Below the pieces are notes generated by a model that saw nothing but the letters and a program-made list of their open reading frames with translations, did no database searches and had not been told where the DNA came from. From Halobacillus halophilus DSM 2266 (GTDB lineage Bacteria; Bacillota; Bacilli; Bacillales; Halobacillaceae), in assembly GCF_000284515.1 (NCBI RefSeq), contig NC_017668.1, positions 248,001-312,000 on the forward strand: a stretch of 64,000 nt of DNA, written 5' to 3'. The first letter of the stretch is position 1. Each line of letters opens with the position of its first letter. Below, one piece after another: positions 1,326 to 52,422 of this stretch. The position numbers were made by a program, and so were the translations under genes.

Positions 1326-1542
1326 ATTAGTTTTTGTTAGAGGTCGTGGCCGATTTCTCTTAAACGTGATCTTCGACTAAAGGGGATTGTGGAAGAAGCC
1401 TTTTCGAGGTGTTGTGTGGAGGAGTGTTCCAGGAATCAGCTCGTCCAGCTAGTACAAAGGTGTAGAGTGGCTGAGAGATTTGTCTTAGACGATAGGTTGT
1501 TTTCAATGTAACCTTATTAAATAATTTTAAGGAGTGGAAGCG
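1297..1542 (+). other. 246-nt untranslated leader, unassigned
   Basis: This lies between the predicted sigma-54 start site and the first gene. After the terminator I see no convincing open frame and no riboswitch class I recognise. Confidence 0.4.
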
Positions 1543-4725: not shown

Positions 4726-4843
4726 TTGTCTCCCTTCTATTAAATCCTTAATAATAGGTACGATTACATAAGAAAAGGGTTTCAACTACTATTGATCATA
4801 AGAAGCTCTTATTGAATTTTAAGCAAAATGATATTAAACTAAC

Positions 4844-5445
4844 GGGCCGGATTGTGGAAGACTCAGTTTCGAGATATTTGTTTGAGGTGGAGGTCCTGCG
4901 GGGGGGAGATTTCGCTTTCCGTAAGCACGTGGTAAGCTTCCTCAGGCTTCGCCTTCCGGGATCTTACCAATCATGTGTATCCCACAGGAGTCTTCATCGT
5001 CCCCCTCCGGACCGTGCCAAATCAGATGCTTGAAACGACTTCAAACATTACTTGATTGAAGATGAAATAGACCATGTAGTTTTGTGCCTATTTTCAGGAT
5101 GTAACGACCCACAAATCTTGTCGTGAAAGCATTTCATTTAGAGTAAGGTGGAGAACCTTTTTCTTCTGGAAGGGTCCGTTCCCCTAAATCGAGTTGGGCT
5201 GGTGGGGAAATGACGAGACTCCCATGGGAGAAGGGACTAGGTGAGATCCCGCAGGGAGTGAAACGAGCGAGGAAGCTCCTGGTAATAAGCAGGATCGACT
5301 AAAGTCGCCACGTCCTGTGGCAACGTCGATCGACCCCACGTCATGTAGGGCCATAGGAAAGCGAGTTATTTCCCCACCAGCCCTCCTCCATTTAACGTAA
5401 AGGAACCAATTATCTCGAAATCGAGTCTTAAACAAACGGGAGCTT
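4844..5445 (+). repeat. interspersed 0.6-kb repeat, copy A
   Basis: The left edge carries GGGCCGGATTGTG followed by AAGACTCAGTTTCGAGATA. The right edge carries the inverted counterpart (ATCTCGAAATCGAGTCTT) and ends in CGGGAGCTTTTC. The interior is GC-rich with several short palindromic blocks, for example TTCCTCAGGCTTCGCCTTCC and CTCCCATGGGAG. Copies B, C and D elsewhere in the window share ends and internal blocks. No transposase or convincing gene lies inside; the open frames here are chance. Confidence 0.85.
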
Positions 5446-5573
5446 TTCTTTAAAAATCAAGATTCAGAATAAACAGAATATTTATATATGAATTCAATAA
5501 GTTGAGCTCCTGCATAGATTTTGAAATAATTGAGCTTATATATACTGATTGAGAATGGAGGGAGAAGTAAGCT

Positions 5574-13807: not shown

Positions 13808-13845
13808 TCAGCCTCTGTTATATCTCCGGGATGATTATTAAAGAT

Positions 13846-14481
13846 AAGCTCCCGTTTGTTGAAGACTCAGTTTCGAGATAACTCGGGTCCATTGCCAAAA
13901 AAGGATAGGGCGGCTACGGAAACAACTCGTCTTGTTCGATCACCCAGACACTCGAGACATAAGCCGCTCATCAACGGATTGAAAAACCGCTATCCTTTTG
14001 ATGGTCGGCTTATGCTGGTCGTGTCTTTCGGGGTGATTCCACATTTGAACACTTTCCTGCGGGGGAACTGGCAAGCCTCCTCGCTCGTTTCACTCCCTGT
14101 GGGGTCTCGCCTAGCTCCATCTCCCGCGGGAGTCTCGTCGTTTCCTTCGCCACCCAACGCTATCTAGTGAACGAACCCTTCTTTAGAAGTGCAGGTGTTA
14201 GACTTGATCCTTTCTAAATCCAGTGGTATCAGGCCTTTTCCAACACAACCTAGAGGAAACAGGAACTCATGATTCAAGTGATTTTTGCCTATGTCTCGAG
14301 CCTCTCATTTCAGCAAGGTCCGGAGGGGGACGATGAAGACTCCTGTGGGATGAACATGATCGGTAAGATCTCGGAAGGCGCAGCCTGAGGAAGCTCACCA
14401 CATGCCCACGGAAAGCGAGCCGTTCCCTGGAGCCCATTCTCCACCCAATATCTCGAAACTGAGTCTTCCACAATCCGGCCC
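13846..14481 (-). repeat. interspersed 0.6-kb repeat, copy B (inverted)
   Basis: It reads on the minus strand relative to copy A: on the plus strand it begins AAGCTCCCGTTTGTTGAAGA and ends in CACAATCCGGCCC. Both TTTCGAGATA-type inverted ends are present, as are the TCCCACAGGAGTCTTCATCG and CCTCCTCGCTCGTTTCACTC blocks shared with copy A. The interior contains an extra AAAAGGATAG...CTATCCTTTT hairpin region. No gene is recognised inside. Confidence 0.85.
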
Positions 14482-14497
14482 TATAGTTGAACAAAGT

Positions 14498-14563
14498 AAT
14501 AATAAAAATCAACAAGAAGGAATACCTCGAATAGGGCATTCCTTTTTGTTGATTTTTATTATA
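14498..14563. terminator. long AT-rich hairpin (25-bp stem)
   Basis: Arm 14498-14523 pairs with 14538-14563 with a single G-U pair and a 14-nt loop. It lies just past the stop of the small lipoprotein gene on the minus strand and directly outside repeat copy B. It can act as the lipoprotein terminator. Confidence 0.7.
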
Positions 14564-21958: not shown

Positions 21959-21999
21959 ATACCTCAGGTCATCCATAATATGGATGACCTAAGGTGGAT
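21959..21999. repeat. palindromic repeat R1
   Basis: CCTCAGGTCATCCAT / ATGGATGACCTAAGG inverted arms with a 3-nt loop (one mismatch). It lies behind the FNT gene, where it may act as a weak terminator. Related to R2-R5. Confidence 0.85.
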
Positions 22000-22715: not shown

Positions 22716-22766
22716 AAAAAACCACCTCAGGTCATCCATAATTTGGATGACCTGAGGTGGTTTTAT
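22713..22766. repeat. palindromic repeat R2 (bidirectional terminator)
   Basis: ACCACCTCAGGTCATCCA / TGGATGACCTGAGGTGGT perfect arms with a short loop, flanked by A7 and T4. It lies between the convergent peptidase E and DinB genes and fits a terminator for the plus strand. Confidence 0.9.
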
Positions 22767-26560: not shown

Positions 26561-26684
26561 ATTTGATATATAATTGTTGTCGTCCTGTTATTGTTGTTTG
26601 CCTTCTAGATGGGTAAAGTTAGAGTTGTTATTTAAGACAGAGATAAAAAAATAAATTCGACTGTTAACTAGGGAGGCATTAATT

Positions 26685-27455
26685 ATGAAAAAAACATTAT
26701 TTTCAATAGCAGCGATCTTAATGATTATGGCATCTACAACAATTACAGCTAGCGCACAGGAAACTGTGGTTGATAGAGGAGATACACTTTGGGGCATTGG
26801 TCAAGAATATGGGGTGTCTGTTGAAGACATTAAAGACATCAACGGTCTATCATCTGACTTGATCCATCCTGGACAAACTATTCAAATTAGTGAAGAAGAA
26901 AGCAATGAATCAAATGAATCAACTTCAAGCGACGAACTATACACCGTTAATTCCGGAGACACTCTATGGGGTATCGGTCAGGATTATTCTGTAAAAGTAG
27001 ATTCATTGAAATCCTGGAACGATCTATCTTCTGACCTTATTCATCCTGGTCAAGAACTAGTCGTTGAAGGAAATCAGGCTGCTTCTACAAGTAATGAACC
27101 TGAAGAGAAAGAAGAAGCGAAAGAAGAAACTTCTGAATCAAACGAGACTTCTAGTGATGATGTAGCTAAAACCATGACGATGGAAGCTACTGCTTATACG
27201 GCATTCTGTGAAGGCTGCTCTGGAACGACCTATACTGGTATCGATCTAAGAGCGAATCCGGATCGTAAAGTTATCGCAGTGGATCCTGACGTTATTCCAC
27301 TAGGCTCTGAAGTTTATGTTGAAGGCTACGGTAAAGCTGTTGCAGGAGATATCGGCGGCGCTATTCAAAATGACCGCATTGACGTATTTATTCCTAACCA
27401 GGACGATGCTCTTGAGTTCGGACGTAAAGACGTAGAAGTAACTGTATACGAATAA
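26685..27455 (+). CDS. YocH-like cell-wall protein: LysM-LysM-3D
   Basis: 256 residues: a signal peptide (cleavage near TASA-QE, residue 24), LysM domains at about 27-70 and 85-128 (each with RGDTLWGIG or SGDTLWGIG), a Ser/Glu-rich linker and a C-terminal 3D domain (about 162-256) carrying the aspartates of VIAVDPDVIPLG, AGDIGG and NDRIDVF. LysM binds peptidoglycan; 3D domains are found in autolysin/lytic transglycosylase-like proteins. The WalR-type box upstream suggests growth-linked control. The 3D domain is residue-for-residue the same as in the next two genes, whereas the N-terminal half differs. Confidence 0.92.
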   Translation: MKKTLFSIAAILMIMASTTITASAQETVVDRGDTLWGIGQEYGVSVEDIKDINGLSSDLIHPGQTIQISEEESNESNESTSSDELYTVNSGDTLWGIGQDYSVKVDSLKSWNDLSSDLIHPGQELVVEGNQAASTSNEPEEKEEAKEETSESNETSSDDVAKTMTMEATAYTAFCEGCSGTTYTGIDLRANPDRKVIAVDPDVIPLGSEVYVEGYGKAVAGDIGGAIQNDRIDVFIPNQDDALEFGRKDVEVTVYE

Positions 27456-27489
27456 GTACGACTTCACAACTGAATAATTAATAAGATAA

Positions 27490-27522
27490 TATGACGATGT
27501 CCATTTGGGCATCGTTTTTCTT
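27490..27522 (+). terminator. terminator after LysM/3D gene 1
   Basis: ACGATGTCC / GGGCATCGT stem with an ATTT loop and a long T-rich tract. Confidence 0.8.
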
Positions 27523-27589
27523 TTTCTTTTTTTTTGCTTTTTACAACTTTATTATCAATTTTCCATCATCTAAAATAGGAATCTTCATC

Positions 27590-27662
27590 CTCCCCCTCCT
27601 CCATAGAGTAACGGACCCAATTTATCTCGAAACTGAGTCTTCAAGTATCGGGAGCTTTACTG
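27590..27662 (+). repeat. interspersed repeat, truncated copy D (right end only)
   Basis: Only the right terminus remains: ACGGACCCAATTTATCTCGA, then AACTGAGTCTTCAAGT and CGGGAGCTTTAC, nearly matching the right ends of copies A and C. It sits between LysM/3D genes 1 and 2. Confidence 0.75.
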
Positions 27663-27721
27663 GAAAATGAACACGGAGGTTAAGAAGAGCCTTTTTATTG
27701 TTGTGGTAAATATTACATGTA

Positions 27722-27738
27722 TGTGAAGGAAATGTAAT
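27722..27738 (+). promoter_or_regulatory. WalR-like box upstream of LysM/3D gene 2
   Basis: TGTGAA-N5-TGTAAT, one mismatch to the WalR consensus, at the same place as in gene 1. It is embedded in a wider dyad, AATATTACA-N15-TGTAATAT, conserved before all three genes. Confidence 0.55.
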
Positions 27739-27855
27739 ATCTGAAAAATGATTGTTGTCATCCTGTTATTGAGATACAACTGTAAGGTGTTAAGGTAGAA
27801 GATGTGATTTTAAACAGAGGCGATCATTTGTTTAACAAATAAGGAGGCAATTATT

Positions 27856-28446
27856 ATGAAAAAATCAATTCTTTCAATAGTAGCAACTTTTGCAATTATA
27901 GGGACAACTACCATTACCGCAAGCGCAAGTGAAGTAGTCGTAGATAGAGGAGACACCCTTTGGGGCATTGGACAGGAAAAAGGGGTTTCCGTGGAACAGC
28001 TTAAAGCCGCAAACGATTTATCATCTAACCTGATTTTCCCGGATCAGACTCTTACCATTAATGATGGATCAGATGATCAAGAAAGCGAAGAAAATCATTC
28101 AGAAGCTGAAGATGTACAAGCTTCTGGGTCTGAAGATTCCTCTGGTGAAGATGTCGCTAAAACCATGACGATGGAAGCTACAGCTTATACGGCATTTTGT
28201 GAAGGTTGCTCTGGGACGACCTATACTGGTATCGATCTAAGAGCGAATCCGGATCGTAAAGTTATCGCAGTGGATCCTGACGTTATTCCACTAGGCTCTG
28301 AAGTTTATGTTGAAGGCTACGGTAAAGCTGTTGCAGGAGATATCGGCGGCGCTATTCAAAATGACCGCATTGACGTATTTATTCCTAACCAGGACGACGC
28401 CCTTGAATTTGGACGTAAAGACGTAGAAGTAACCGTATATGAATAA
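27856..28446 (+). CDS. LysM-3D cell-wall protein, tandem copy 1
   Basis: 196 residues: signal peptide (ASA-SE, about residue 25), one LysM (about 26-70), an acidic Ser/Glu/Asp linker (72-102) and a 3D domain (103-196). It is a short version of gene 1 with a single LysM. Its protein product is identical to that of the next gene, and the shared DNA includes about 150 bp of upstream leader, so this is a recent 822-bp tandem duplication. AAGGAGG lies 8 nt before the ATG. Likely a secreted peptidoglycan-active protein. Confidence 0.92.
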   Translation: MKKSILSIVATFAIIGTTTITASASEVVVDRGDTLWGIGQEKGVSVEQLKAANDLSSNLIFPDQTLTINDGSDDQESEENHSEAEDVQASGSEDSSGEDVAKTMTMEATAYTAFCEGCSGTTYTGIDLRANPDRKVIAVDPDVIPLGSEVYVEGYGKAVAGDIGGAIQNDRIDVFIPNQDDALEFGRKDVEVTVYE

Positions 28447-28486
28447 GAACAACTACCCAACTGACTAACTACAAAATCATATTTAT

Positions 28487-28516
28487 ATGACGATGTCCTA
28501 TTGGACATCGTTTTAT
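28487..28516 (+). terminator. terminator after LysM/3D gene 2
   Basis: ACGATGTCC / GGACATCGT stem with a TATT loop and a TTTTATT tail. Confidence 0.8.
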
Positions 28517-28543
28517 TCATTAATCAGGTAAATATTACATGTG

Positions 28544-28560
28544 TGTGAAGGAAATGTAAT
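28544..28560 (+). promoter_or_regulatory. WalR-like box upstream of LysM/3D gene 3
   Basis: TGTGAA-N5-TGTAAT, the same element as before gene 2, duplicated with it. Confidence 0.55.
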
Positions 28561-28677
28561 ATCTGAAAAATGATTGTTGTTATCCTGTTATTGAGATACA
28601 ACTGTAAGGTGTTAAGGTAGAAGATGTGATTTTAAACAGAGGCGATCATTTGTTTAACAAATAAGGAGGCAATTATT

Positions 28678-29268
28678 ATGAAAAAATCAATTCTTTCAAT
28701 AGTAGCAACTTTTGCAATTATAGGGACAACTACCATTACCGCAAGCGCAAGTGAAGTAGTCGTAGATAGAGGAGACACCCTTTGGGGCATTGGACAGGAA
28801 AAAGGGGTTTCCGTGGAACAGCTTAAAGCCGCAAACGATTTATCATCTAACCTGATTTTCCCGGATCAGACTCTTACCATTAATGATGGATCAGATGATC
28901 AAGAAAGCGAAGAAAATCATTCAGAAGCTGAAGATGTACAAGCTTCTGGGTCTGAAGATTCCTCTGGTGAAGATGTCGCTAAAACCATGACGATGGAAGC
29001 TACAGCTTATACGGCATTTTGTGAAGGTTGCTCTGGAACGACCTATACTGGTATCGATCTAAGAGCGAATCCGGATCGTAAAGTTATCGCAGTGGATCCT
29101 GACGTTATTCCACTAGGCTCTGAAGTTTACGTTGAAGGATACGGTAAAGCCGTAGCAGGAGATATCGGCGGCGCTATTCAAAACGACCGCATTGACGTAT
29201 TCATTCCTAACCAGGACGACGCCCTCGAATTTGGTCGTAAAGATGTAGAAGTAACCGTATATGAATAA
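28678..29268 (+). CDS. LysM-3D cell-wall protein, tandem copy 2
   Basis: A 196-residue protein identical to that of 27856-28446. The DNA of the N-terminal half matches copy 1 almost exactly, while synonymous differences collect in the last 150 bp of the 3D domain. The terminator behind it is unrelated to that of copy 1, so the duplication breakpoint lies near the stop codon. Same expected role: secreted, wall-bound by LysM. Confidence 0.92.
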   Translation: MKKSILSIVATFAIIGTTTITASASEVVVDRGDTLWGIGQEKGVSVEQLKAANDLSSNLIFPDQTLTINDGSDDQESEENHSEAEDVQASGSEDSSGEDVAKTMTMEATAYTAFCEGCSGTTYTGIDLRANPDRKVIAVDPDVIPLGSEVYVEGYGKAVAGDIGGAIQNDRIDVFIPNQDDALEFGRKDVEVTVYE

Positions 29269-42362: not shown

Positions 42363-43523
42363 ATGGTTGATCTTTTTGATAAATGGATAAAAAATGACCG
42401 TCATCAACGATTGTTTGAAAAAGCTGAACGGATTGCTAAGGAAGCAAAAGCGCAGGTAAGCAAAACGGACCCTGAGGCTGTTTTTTCCCATCGTACGTTG
42501 AAAGTAATAAAACAGGAGAGATACCCATCACTTACCTTATCAGCTGCTTACGGAGGAGAAGATCTATCTCTGTACGAGTTTTTATTATTACAAGAAAAGA
42601 TAGCAGAAGGTGATGGATCGGTTGCATTATCTATCGGTTGGCATTTAGGAATTATGAAAGAGTTAAAGGAAGACAAGCTTTGGAGGAAAAATGATTTTGA
42701 CCGCCTGGCTAAAGAGGTGGCTGAAGAACAGAAGGTTGTTAATCGGGCAGCTACAGAGCCGGCAACTGGAAGTCCGACTCGTGGAGGGGTCCCGGAAACC
42801 AAAGCAGTCAGAAATGGAGACCATTATATCATCACCGGTCGTAAAACATTCACATCTATGGCGGACCATTTAGATTATTATATAGTTTCTGCTTATGTTG
42901 AAGAATTAGATGAGATTGGCTGGTTTCTCATTGATCGTCATCATCCTGGACTTTCGGTCGATAAAACATGGGATACCCTTGGTATGAGAGGTACGGAAAG
43001 TGACGATTTAGTATTGGATGGAGTAGAAGTTAATGTGCATGATTTAGTAGAGACAAAATCAAAAGAAAAGCCTGCTCCTAAAGGCTGGCTGCTGCATATC
43101 CCGGCGTGTTATCTAGGAATTGCTACAGCTGCGCGAAATGATGCAATTGAATTCGCTCAAAACTTCCAGCCAAACAGCTTGGATACTCCAATTGCAGAAG
43201 TGGGACATATCCAAGATAAAATTGGTGAAATGGAATGGAAGCTGCTGCAAGCCCACTCGTTCATGTACACGGTCGCAAGAAAATGGGATGAAGAACCCGA
43301 TCAGCGTAAGCACATGGGTGCGGAGTTAGCCGCGGTTAAACTGGCCGTCACTAATACTGCGGCAGAGGTTGTGGATTTAGCAATGAGGATTGCCGGAGGG
43401 CGAGGTTTATCCAAGAAGTACCCATTCGAAAAATATTACCGCGATGTCCGGGCGGGTCTGCATAATCCGCCCATGGATGACGCAGTGGTGAAGATGCTCG
43501 CCAAACAAGCTTTATCAGAATGA
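42363..43523 (+). CDS. acyl-CoA dehydrogenase family protein
   Basis: About 386 residues, FAD-dependent. N-terminal helical domain, central beta domain with ATEPATGSPTRGGVPETKAVRNGDHYIITGRKTFTS and WDTLGMRGTESDDLVLDGVEV, and a C-terminal helical domain ending AMRIAGGRGLSKKYPFEKYYRDVRAG. It probably oxidises an acyl-CoA or acts as a flavin monooxygenase relative; the substrate is not predictable. GGGAGTGG precedes ATG 42363 (ATG 42357 is also possible); the long upstream frame from 42276 is unlikely. Confidence 0.88.
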   Translation: MVDLFDKWIKNDRHQRLFEKAERIAKEAKAQVSKTDPEAVFSHRTLKVIKQERYPSLTLSAAYGGEDLSLYEFLLLQEKIAEGDGSVALSIGWHLGIMKELKEDKLWRKNDFDRLAKEVAEEQKVVNRAATEPATGSPTRGGVPETKAVRNGDHYIITGRKTFTSMADHLDYYIVSAYVEELDEIGWFLIDRHHPGLSVDKTWDTLGMRGTESDDLVLDGVEVNVHDLVETKSKEKPAPKGWLLHIPACYLGIATAARNDAIEFAQNFQPNSLDTPIAEVGHIQDKIGEMEWKLLQAHSFMYTVARKWDEEPDQRKHMGAELAAVKLAVTNTAAEVVDLAMRIAGGRGLSKKYPFEKYYRDVRAGLHNPPMDDAVVKMLAKQALSE

Positions 43524-43726
43524 TACCTGTGTTAGATTTGTAATTTTTATAAGCGGTTATTAAAGAATAGGGCCGGATTGTGTAAGACTCGTATTTGAGA
43601 TATTAGGTTAGAGTGCAGGTCCTGCGGGGGACGATTCGCTTTCCGTGGGCATGTGCTGAGCCTCCTCAGTCTTGTAATGACCCCCAAATGTTGGACACCT
43701 TATGAAACTTAGGAGGGACCCAACAT

Positions 43727-44233
43727 ATGTCTAAACTTACTTCTCAAGAAAAGTACCTGATCGTCCAACGTTATCTCACGGAAAATGTCAGTTTCCGTGA
43801 CTTAGAAAAAGAGTTTGGAGTGGATAGTTCTTCCATCCGTTATTGGGTGAAATTATCCGAATATCATGGTAGTGAAGCCTTCGACTTCCCCTATACAAAC
43901 TATTCAGCTGCCTTTAAACTGAAAGTAATTCAACGTATAGAGGAAGAAGAATATTCGATTCGAGAAGCTTCCGCTATGTTTCACATCCCCGATTTCTCCA
44001 TGGTACGCCGATGGCGTAAGAAGTGGCTGGAAGGCGGAAAAGAAGCCCTTGAATCTACAAGGAAGGGGCCAACACAGATGACGTCTTATAAGAAGAAAGA
44101 AGATTCAATGGATTCTTATGAAGCCTTAAAGAAAGAGAATGAACGCTTACGGATAGAAAATGAATACTTAAAAAAGTTAGAGACCTTAGCTCAAAAAAAG
44201 AAAGCATCTCGAAAGAAGAACAAGCGCAAGTAA
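43727..44233 (+). CDS. IS3-family OrfA (helix-turn-helix protein)
   Basis: 168 residues. Two helix-turn-helix-like units (YLTENVSFRDLEKEFGVDSSSIRYWVK and IEEEEYSIREASAMFHIPDFSMVRRWRKKW) and a C-terminal leucine-zipper-like helix (YEALKKENERLRIENEYLKKLETL). It binds the IS ends and, alone, regulates transposition. AGGAGGGACCCAACAT precedes the ATG. Confidence 0.95.
   Translation: MSKLTSQEKYLIVQRYLTENVSFRDLEKEFGVDSSSIRYWVKLSEYHGSEAFDFPYTNYSAAFKLKVIQRIEEEEYSIREASAMFHIPDFSMVRRWRKKWLEGGKEALESTRKGPTQMTSYKKKEDSMDSYEALKKENERLRIENEYLKKLETLAQKKKASRKKNKRK
44193..44200 (+). promoter_or_regulatory. programmed -1 frameshift site (A7G)
   Basis: CAA-AAA-AAG in the orfA frame contains the slippery heptamer A-AAA-AAG. 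A -1 slip leads straight into the orfB frame (GAA-AGC-ATC), giving the OrfAB transposase. Confidence 0.85.
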
Positions 44234-45069
44234 TCGATGAGTTAAGGTTTCATTTTCCAGTTAAACAGCTGACGGAAATAGCTGATATCCCTAGAAGCAC
44301 CTATTACCATTGGAAAGAAAAGCAACTCGAGCCAAAAACGGACCGACCATTAAAGGAGCTTATCACCTCCATTTTTAAAGAACATAAAGGTCGCTACGGC
44401 TATCGCCGCATTGAAAATGAGCTTCGTAATCTCGGTCATGAAGTGAACCATAAAAAAGTCTATCGTCTTATGAAAGAACTGGGGCTTCAGTCTACGGTGA
44501 AAATGAAGAAATATCGTTCTTATAAAGGGAAAGTTGGTCAAACGGCTCCAAACATCTTAAATCGGAATTTCAAGGCGGATCAGCCGAATCAGAAATGGGT
44601 GACAGACATTACGGAGTTCAAGCTATTTGGCGAGAAGCTTTATCTTTCCCCTGTCTTAGATCTATTCAATGGAGAAATCATCACGTACACAATTGGTTCC
44701 AGACCCACCTATTCCTTGGTGAACAACATGTTAGACCAAGCATTTGAACGCCTTCATCCATCGGATGAACTGGTTATGCACTCCGACCAGGGATGGCATT
44801 ACCAAATGGCTCCCTATCGAAAGAAATTGAAAGACCATCAAGTTACCCAAAGCATGTCCAGAAAAGGGAATTGTCATGATAACGCCGTTATGGAGAACTT
44901 TTTCGGTATCATGAAATCGGAATTCCTTTATTTAAGAGAATTTGAAAGTGTGGCCCATTTCAAACAAGAATTAGAGGAATATTTCCATTATTATAATCAT
45001 AAACGCATCAAATCGAAGCTCAGAATAAGCCCCATTTCCTATCGAGCCCGCTTTCAAGAATCGGCGTGA
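44200..45069 (+). CDS. IS3-family OrfB (DDE transposase)
   Basis: The frame is open from the A7G slippery site to 45069, about 289 residues; an internal ATG lies at 44443. It starts with the helical HTH_21 region (FKEHKGRYGYRRIENELRNLGHEVNHKKVYRLMKELGL) followed by the rve integrase core. The catalytic triad is visible as D in WVTDITEF, D in VMHSDQGWHY and E in NAVMENFFGIMKSEF. No stop or gap is seen, so it is probably functional when fused to OrfA. Confidence 0.95.
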   Translation, partial: ESISKEEQAQVIDELRFHFPVKQLTEIADIPRSTYYHWKEKQLEPKTDRPLKELITSIFKEHKGRYGYRRIENELRNLGHEVNHKKVYRLMKELGLQSTVKMKKYRSYKGKVGQTAPNILNRNFKADQPNQKWVTDITEFKLFGEKLYLSPVLDLFNGEIITYTIGSRPTYSLVNNMLDQAFERLHPSDELVMHSDQGWHYQMAPYRKKLKDHQVTQSMSRKGNCHDNAVMENFFGIMKSEFLYLREFESVAHFKQELEEYFHYYNHKRIKSKLRISPISYRARFQESA

Positions 45070-45463
45070 TAATTTTAATGAATGTGTCCAATTTTAAGGG
45101 GTCAGTTCATCTTCGACTTCCGGGGTCTCACCGATCATGTTTATCCCACAGGAGTCTTCGCCGTTCCCTTCCGCCCCTTTGCGATCATGGAGAGCCCGAA
45201 ATCTCTGCATAATCGCCTTCCAATGACCAAGGAGCATCTCTAATCTACCCTGGTTTTGGTTGTTTGTTTGCGTGTAGCAACCCTGTACTAGAAGCATTTG
45301 AGTCAGATACAGTATGGTTCCTGTCTCCTATTGTAAGGGTCCGTTCACTAGAGGTCGTTTCCGTAGCCGCCTTCCCTTTTTTGACAACGGACCCATTTAT
45401 CTCGAAATCAAGTCTTCAAGTAATGGGAGCTTATCTACAACAGCAAAATTTAAAAGACCATAA

Positions 45464-45500
45464 AGAAAAGAGGGCACTCTGCAGCGCCCTCTTTTCTTTA
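45464..45500. terminator. bidirectional terminator
   Basis: AAAGAAAAGAGGGC / GCCCTCTTTTCTTT stem behind the PfpI-type gene. Confidence 0.85.
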
Positions 45501-48560: not shown

Positions 48561-48612
48561 ATCATTCCACCTCAGGTCATCCATAATCTGGATGACCTGA
48601 GGTGGAATGATT
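48561..48612. repeat. palindromic repeat R4
   Basis: 24-bp perfect arms around a TAATC loop, with core CCACCTCAGGTCATCCA / TGGATGACCTGAGGTGG extended by AATCATT / AATGATT. It is the longest copy, lying between two minus-strand genes. Confidence 0.92.
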
Positions 48613-52326: not shown

Positions 52327-52402
52327 AAGAATCACCTCCTTCAAGAATAGGTTTCCTTTGTATAAAAAAGATAAACATGGATGTTGTTACCAGAGTTACA
52401 AA

Positions 52403-52422
52403 ATATGGATGACCTGAGGTGG
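52403..52422. repeat. half copy of palindromic repeat (R5)
   Basis: ATATGGATGACCTGAGGTGG equals the right arm of R1-R4, but no left arm precedes it, so no hairpin can form. Confidence 0.75.

Follow-up and report, generated by a model that had tools for sequence, protein, structure and literature searches.

A two-layered repeat of Halobacillus halophilus: an IS1595-type MITE shell around an independently turning-over core

Copies in the window and beyond

The window is a 64,000-nucleotide stretch of the Halobacillus halophilus genome (4.17 Mb in three contigs), lying at C1:248001-312000 on the 4.15-Mb main contig, C1. It holds four copies of an interspersed repeat, placed where a preliminary description of this DNA had put them: A on the forward strand, B on the reverse strand, C forward and split, and D with its right end only. 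The repeat is a non-autonomous element formed from two layers, an outer shell and an inner core, and its parts in the window are given below.

1384..1422, + strand: degenerate left end, 74% identical to copy A over 39 nt, with no right end recognised nearby
4792..4843, + strand: left shell of copy A, a decayed IS1595-type end, the final 12 bp being the docking arm TATTAAACTAAC
4844..5445, + strand: core of copy A, with the GGGCCG centre at 4844-4849 and the GGGAGC centre at 5438-5443
4857-4876 and 5411-5430, within the + strand core: inner inverted repeat of copy A
4892..5013, + strand: hairpin module P of copy A, GGTCCTGCGG ... CCGGACC
5172..5407, + strand: hairpin module Q of copy A, GGGTCCGTT ... 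AAAGGAACC, inverted repeat I14
5283..5349, + strand: match to Rfam RF01690 (Bacillaceae-1 RNA) in copy A, 60.4 bits, a 67-nt optional module in Q
5446..5479, + strand: right shell of copy A, decayed
13812..13845, - strand: right shell of copy B
13846..14481, - strand: core of copy B
14482..14533, - strand: left shell of copy B
27590..27657, + strand: copy D, core right end only, with the end motif at 27623-27657
43518..43569, + strand: left shell of copy C
43570..45432, + strand: core of copy C, interrupted by an IS3-type insertion sequence
43673..45109, + strand: the IS3-type insertion sequence, with TCT repeated at 43670-43672 and 45110-45112
45433..45466, + strand: right shell of copy C

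The insertion sequence in copy C encodes an rve integrase core and HTH domains, and the TCT repeat forms a duplication at its ends. The copy D remnant sits between the first and second of three tandem paralogous genes (26685, 27856 and 28678; 26666-29268), in which upstream as well as coding parts are repeated. A near-perfect 39-nt palindrome, CCACCTCAGGTCATCCATAATnTGGATGACCTGAGGTGG, also recurs in the window (21959-21997, 22722-22760, 48567-48605 and 52384-52422; three of these good copies and one a half copy only), and is possibly a terminator-like or operator-like repeat.

The genome carries far more than four copies. At up to three mismatches, the left end GGGCCGGATTGTGGAAGAC has 139 matches in the genome (76 forward, 63 reverse) and the right-end pattern 247 (130 forward, 117 reverse), against none genome-wide for the same patterns reversed as controls, while a full-length search gave at least 93 matching pieces, with 40 of 282 first-look candidates scored. 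Repeat loci are spread across the whole main contig, and at least 148 distinct elements have both ends, correctly ordered (stretches L001-L180, around the matches listed); the end patterns behind this number are loose, and a few elements, L180 and L127 among them, may not be genuine. These 148 are mostly 524-545 or about 600 bp long. The terminal order is conserved, the two ends being inherited together, and this fixed order contradicts the suggestion that the repeat is a set of REP clusters fused into a unit. In a survey of 61 genomes from 30 genera, the repeat was detected in 53 of the genomes and 23 of the genera, including all 22 same-genus genomes, and H. halophilus and Thalassobacillus devorans are among the named Bacillales genomes with the same ends. 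No description of these elements was found in the open-access literature, in what was less than a full survey; a review of MITEs (PMC10969869) contains no occurrence of IS1595, Bacillus, exchange, nested, gene conversion or site-specific recomb.

Copies often abut the T-run of an intrinsic terminator: among the 87 elements whose flanks were long enough, 32 adjoin a terminator-like hairpin with a T-run (19 left-hand and 14 right-hand cases), compared with a rate of 0.7% per control window. Judged by open reading frames, the 51 long-flank elements have tandem genes on either side in 29 cases, converging genes in 12 and diverging genes in three, and seven have no ORF within 400 bp.

An IS1595-type MITE as the outer shell

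The shell comprises ~52 bp on the left and ~34 bp on the right, with outer ends GGCTCTGTTAAA...TTTAACAGAGCC. Its terminal repeats are imperfect (GGCTCTGTTAAA-N6-TGTTGATTTT), and the target duplications are 8 bp long and AT-rich. The unit noted earlier, GGGCC...GGGAGCTT, is the core, which is exchangeable and nested within these true transposon ends. GGGCC and GGGAGCTT are indeed conserved, as first reported, but they are core borders and not the ends of a transposon, as conservation runs outward through GGCTCTGTTAAAGTTTATTGTTGATTTTTCATAAGAGGCTTATTACGCAATA before GGGCC and TACCTTAAAATCAACACGGAAGTTTAACAGAGCC after GGGAGCTT, and orthology likewise continues beyond the core ends.

Outer ends are recognisable in 62 of the 148 elements, 22 of them with no more than three mismatches. 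In these 22 best-preserved elements the target duplications agree at 6.91 of 8 positions, compared with 3.60 when shuffled among copies (maximum 4.86 in 2000 shuffles), ties among candidate ends having been resolved in favour of duplication. Clean empty sites with the 8-mer in single copy were found for L028 and L056 in one close relative (G001) and for L055 in another (G019); the L042 site of G001 also lacks the element but shows a small deletion. Together with the IS1595-type ends and the lack of coding content, the duplications and empty sites bear out the early proposal of a non-autonomous mobile element.

A scan for exact GGCTCTGTTAAACTTNNNTGTTGATTTT yielded 70 stretches from named genomes, containing 49 end pairs with at least six of eight bases duplicated, 31 of them with all eight. 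One element elsewhere in the Bacillales (L212:360-2216) has the same ends, an 8/8 duplication, and between them a 364-aa ORF for an IS1595-family transposase (PF12762, 6e-18; PF12760, 3.6e-7; NF033547, 1.5e-63). As a transposase is found between the same ends, and duplications are 8 bp, the outer shell is an IS1595-type MITE. Once inserted, it stays in place and decays, except for ~12 bp beside the core on each side.

The L212 element carries a GyrI-like passenger gene (L212:1611-2063), and a further IS1595-type element, in which the transposase ORF is split, encodes a 160-aa protein without a Pfam match (L258:3637-4119). Three loci of Evansella vedderi (L239, L244 and L247) hold MITEs of 91 bp that share these ends, have 8/8 duplications and are near the size of a coreless shell.

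In the genome of H. halophilus itself, neither a PF12762 profile search nor a query with the L212 transposase gave a match, and a resident IS1595 transposase was rejected as the mover. The same query found some match in 58 of 150 relatives; within the genus, matches were confined to transposase fragments no longer than 88 aa, and to 8 of the 21 other genomes. An autonomous core was likewise rejected, ORFs of at least 120 aa being absent from the 14 longest cores, with the unrelated IS3-type element of copy C set aside, in keeping with the initial statement that no transposase is encoded. An IS6- or plasmid-borne partner was also set aside: plasmids queried with 42 nt of the end yielded weak matches only (14 records, best E 0.1), and three annotated regions held no transposon between such ends.

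Structure and turnover of the core

The core, of ~530 bp, consists of nested hairpins running from GGGCCG to GGGAGC, in which the Bacillaceae-1 module is optional. Modules P and Q are flanked by 20-bp inverted repeats, GAAGACTCAGTTTCGAGATA, situated 13-15 bp inside the core ends. The interiors, in which shared palindromic blocks had been seen, are variable, modular and present in both orientations. Predicted folds are strong on both strands, with z of about -8 (L022 folded as DNA, -7.98; copy A folded as RNA, -7.47; each against 20 shuffles). Such folding, and an optional Rfam family within, agree in part with the idea of a structured-RNA element as a property of the core; a stand-alone structured RNA was rejected, given copies with target duplications, differing module content and inversions.

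In the 116 copies with both modules, polarity is either P+Q+ (63) or its exact inverse, Q-P- (53), and never mixed. On a tree of interiors (86 of the 148, with both modules and 380-560 bp long), orientation requires five changes, four of them forced by starred branches, compared with 28.7 when shuffled. Inversion relative to the ends has therefore occurred more than once, yet is rare.

The match to RF01690 in copy A lies above the gathering cut-off of 35 bits. Ten hits were obtained in 20 chosen loci of this genome, all inside elements, and three in 18 loci of other species (L235 in Bacillus sp. REN3, L218 and L267 in Evansella vedderi), all inside IS1595-type MITEs with 8/8 duplications. The 67-nt matches in elements score 40.9-72.2 bits, and the module is absent in many copies; where it is present, both its orientation and its position in the core vary.

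Forty-four sites of this genome (four, plus the first 40 of 55 candidates) were looked up in G001 and G019, which are same-genus close relatives available as drafts of about 30 and 90 contigs. The resulting 71 site-genome rows comprise 40 occupied ones, 16 scored as empty under a permissive gap rule (some being deletions or remnants), 13 partial (including L028 in G001, which is an empty site) and two others. Of the occupied rows, 39 could be parsed, and ranking was against the 147 copies of this genome. The left shell came first or second in 31 of the 39 orthologous pairs (mean normalised rank 0.058) and the right shell in 25 (0.114), whereas the core did so in none, its mean of 0.444 being compatible with a uniform distribution (p=0.24; best rank 6). 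Orthology switches at the two junctions: on the left, from a mean rank of 0.17 for shell positions -8..0 to 0.47 for the first 15 bp of the core, and on the right, from 0.57 for the last 7 bp before GGGAGCTT to 0.22 for positions +0..8. Interior orientation at these sites was the same in 14 pairs, opposite in 14 and unclassified in 11.

This genome, taken by itself, lends independent support, for it contains 29 core pairs at least 96.5% identical over at least 380 bp, 15 of them independent. In 13 of the 15, the outer shells are 0.25-0.48 identical, which does not exceed the 95th percentile for randomly chosen pairs (median 0.36), and in the other two the shells are 0.79 alike, as after transposition of a whole element. 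L023 and L024, for instance, have interiors that are 100% identical over 461 bp and shells only 25% alike, and both sites are common to a relative. The core therefore turns over independently of the shell: close relatives carry a different core in random orientation at the same site, and nearly identical cores occupy unrelated shells within this genome.

Core loss does occur, as shown by one solo shell in G019 (L382, at the site of own L020), in which the left arm, GGGAGC and the right arm are present without a core. A pattern search for solo shells in this genome gave 69 matches, mostly right core ends among those listed, and none clear. In three nearly complete genomes (G014, G015 and G017), four of 30 loci had both ends and their shells were non-orthologous, these relatives being too distant. 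Stretches of identity between copies can also break off within cores: among 183 pairs, 33 have such a break at positions 50-69 counted from the left end, and 29 at positions 70-51 counted back from the right end. These inner breakpoints hint at a second, inner level of exchange by recombination.

Junctions and the possible exchange of cores

The left junction reads CTTATTAAACAATA-GGGCCG-GATTGTGGAAGACT and the right AGTCTTCAAGAAAC-GGGAGC-TTTTCTTTAAAATC, each with inverted 14-bp arms around a 6-bp centre. Dyad scores at the 6-bp centre are 7.39 and 7.45 of 14, against 4.14 and 4.26 for shuffled letters, and reach at most 5.29 at smaller centres (centres of up to 6 bp were scanned). The left centre is GGGCCG in 105 of 146 cases and the right centre GGGAGC in 123 of 146. 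Shell bases beside the junction are conserved among copies, with the remaining shell near background; being orthologous, they were not carried over with the core, and near-identical cores may differ in the arm that adjoins the junction. These features resemble tyrosine-recombinase sites, suggesting, by analogy, site-specific cassette exchange by a putative recombinase.

Six tyrosine-recombinase genes are present in the genome: XerD, XerC, two of phage type, one on contig C2, and L407:1186-2028 (C1:669136-669978). The last encodes a 280-aa Xer-like protein, the sole extra Xer-like enzyme of the genome, and is separated by ~130 bp from the core left end that follows it at C1:670107. At E<=1e-60 it has homologues in 8 of 61 genomes, with none in G001 or G019, which both show the same core turnover, and L407 was rejected as a general exchange enzyme. 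XerC and XerD are expected in all of these genomes. Comparison of the arms with those of Bacillus subtilis dif (sequence from PMC3025954) involved 32 arm-offset tests, the lowest shuffled fractions being 0.00 and 0.01 at offsets that disagree, which gives no convincing match.

The best explanation, at about even odds, is a two-layer element in which an IS1595-type MITE shell carries cores that would be exchanged site-specifically at the junctions by a recombinase. Cores would then move between shells as units via both junctions, and the differing centres (GGGCCG left, GGGAGC right) would lock a core against simple excision while leaving it exchangeable with that of another element. A host or widespread recombinase would carry out the exchange, and the two orientations would stem from infrequent inversion across the inner 20-bp inverted repeats. 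Mixed polarity is absent and changes on the tree are few, yet orthologous sites are split 14/14, which implies that whole cores move with their ends. Counting against site-specific exchange are the limited range of L407, arms that do not clearly resemble those of dif, the breaks of identity within cores, the near-identical cores with differing arms and the coreless shell L382; both relatives, moreover, are drafts. More tentatively, and at well under even odds, this may be a natural, genome-wide form of recombinase-mediated cassette exchange, with a few hundred docking shells, incompatible site pairs and non-coding hairpin cassettes that would change places continually while keeping their polarity, carried by MITEs across the Bacillales and often outlasting the transposase.

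Gene conversion is the main rival. Here ectopic homologous recombination, by conversion or template switching at large hairpins between the few hundred copies, homogenises the cores, and borders look sharp as homology falls in the decayed shells. Hundreds of bases are common to copies, near-identical cores lie at distant sites and mosaic cores with internal breakpoints exist, all in its favour. It is nonetheless rather unlikely, as the ~12 bp of shell beside the core are conserved yet orthologous, so that tracts stop at the junction while similarity continues, and the core is kept in 0 of 39 pairs. Furthermore, F cores are replaced by R cores in 14 of 28 classified pairs, where common homology is confined to ends of ~33 bp; internal homology cannot have anchored such a replacement at one site.

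That the core is a second mobile element, inserting into or lost from a docking site within the shell, would suit the docking bases conserved beside a decaying shell, the coreless L382 site with its GGGAGC, and the 20-bp inverted repeats 13-15 bp inside the core ends. This reading is improbable, since an ORF of 120 aa or more is lacking from the 14 longest cores (the copy C insertion aside), only one solo shell was recognised in 71 site-genome rows, and the whole elements with target duplications at L055 and L056 carry cores, so that the two layers also move jointly. Least probable is an artefact, whether through misassembly of cores in drafts, which G001 and G019 are, or through independent insertions at the same hot spot, terminators being favoured for insertion. 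The shells match their orthologues in sequence, which argues against independent insertions; same-site cores commonly differ in length, modules and orientation, and collapse of repeats would hardly give 39 of 39; and the 13 of 15 within-genome pairs come from one 4.15-Mb contig, with no need of a second genome.

If exchange of cores at the junctions is true, hundreds of chromosomal sites would have an element frame inherited in place and a centre swapped wholesale between close species. This would be cassette exchange in nature and a source of repeat turnover throughout the genome, one that is misread by phylogenies of single sites; it could also be home to a recombinase that acts on a new target. 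Recombinase-mediated cassette exchange is a laboratory method that uses incompatible site pairs. The repeat shares with it a cassette between two sites with differing centres and an orientation kept relative to those sites, and differs in being natural and genome-wide, with exchange inferred from comparison only. With IS1595-family insertion sequences and MITEs it shares the ends (those of DDE_Tnp_IS1595/Zn_ribbon_IS1595 elements) and the 8-bp AT-rich duplications around a non-coding repeat, whereas its interior is not a transposase remnant but a hairpin core that can be exchanged and inverted and whose borders resemble recombination sites, and no transposase was found in this genome.

The dif/pdif modules of Acinetobacter, in the available parts of their descriptions (PMC6449649, PMC12907356), offer an analogy, as segments that lie between short inverted-arm sites with a 6-bp centre and are shuffled with no enzyme of their own. 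Those are Xer sites around genes and mostly plasmid-borne, whereas the present repeat, which has no clear dif-arm match, is non-coding, chromosomal, present in hundreds per genome and set in a MITE shell. Bacillaceae-1 RNA (RF01690; Weinberg et al. 2010, PMC2864571, as far as the available part of that paper describes it) is shared in the form of the 67-nt matches inside elements. Their distribution suggests that, in the examined loci at least, this Rfam 'RNA' belongs to mobile elements as an optional part rather than forming an independent, stand-alone RNA gene.
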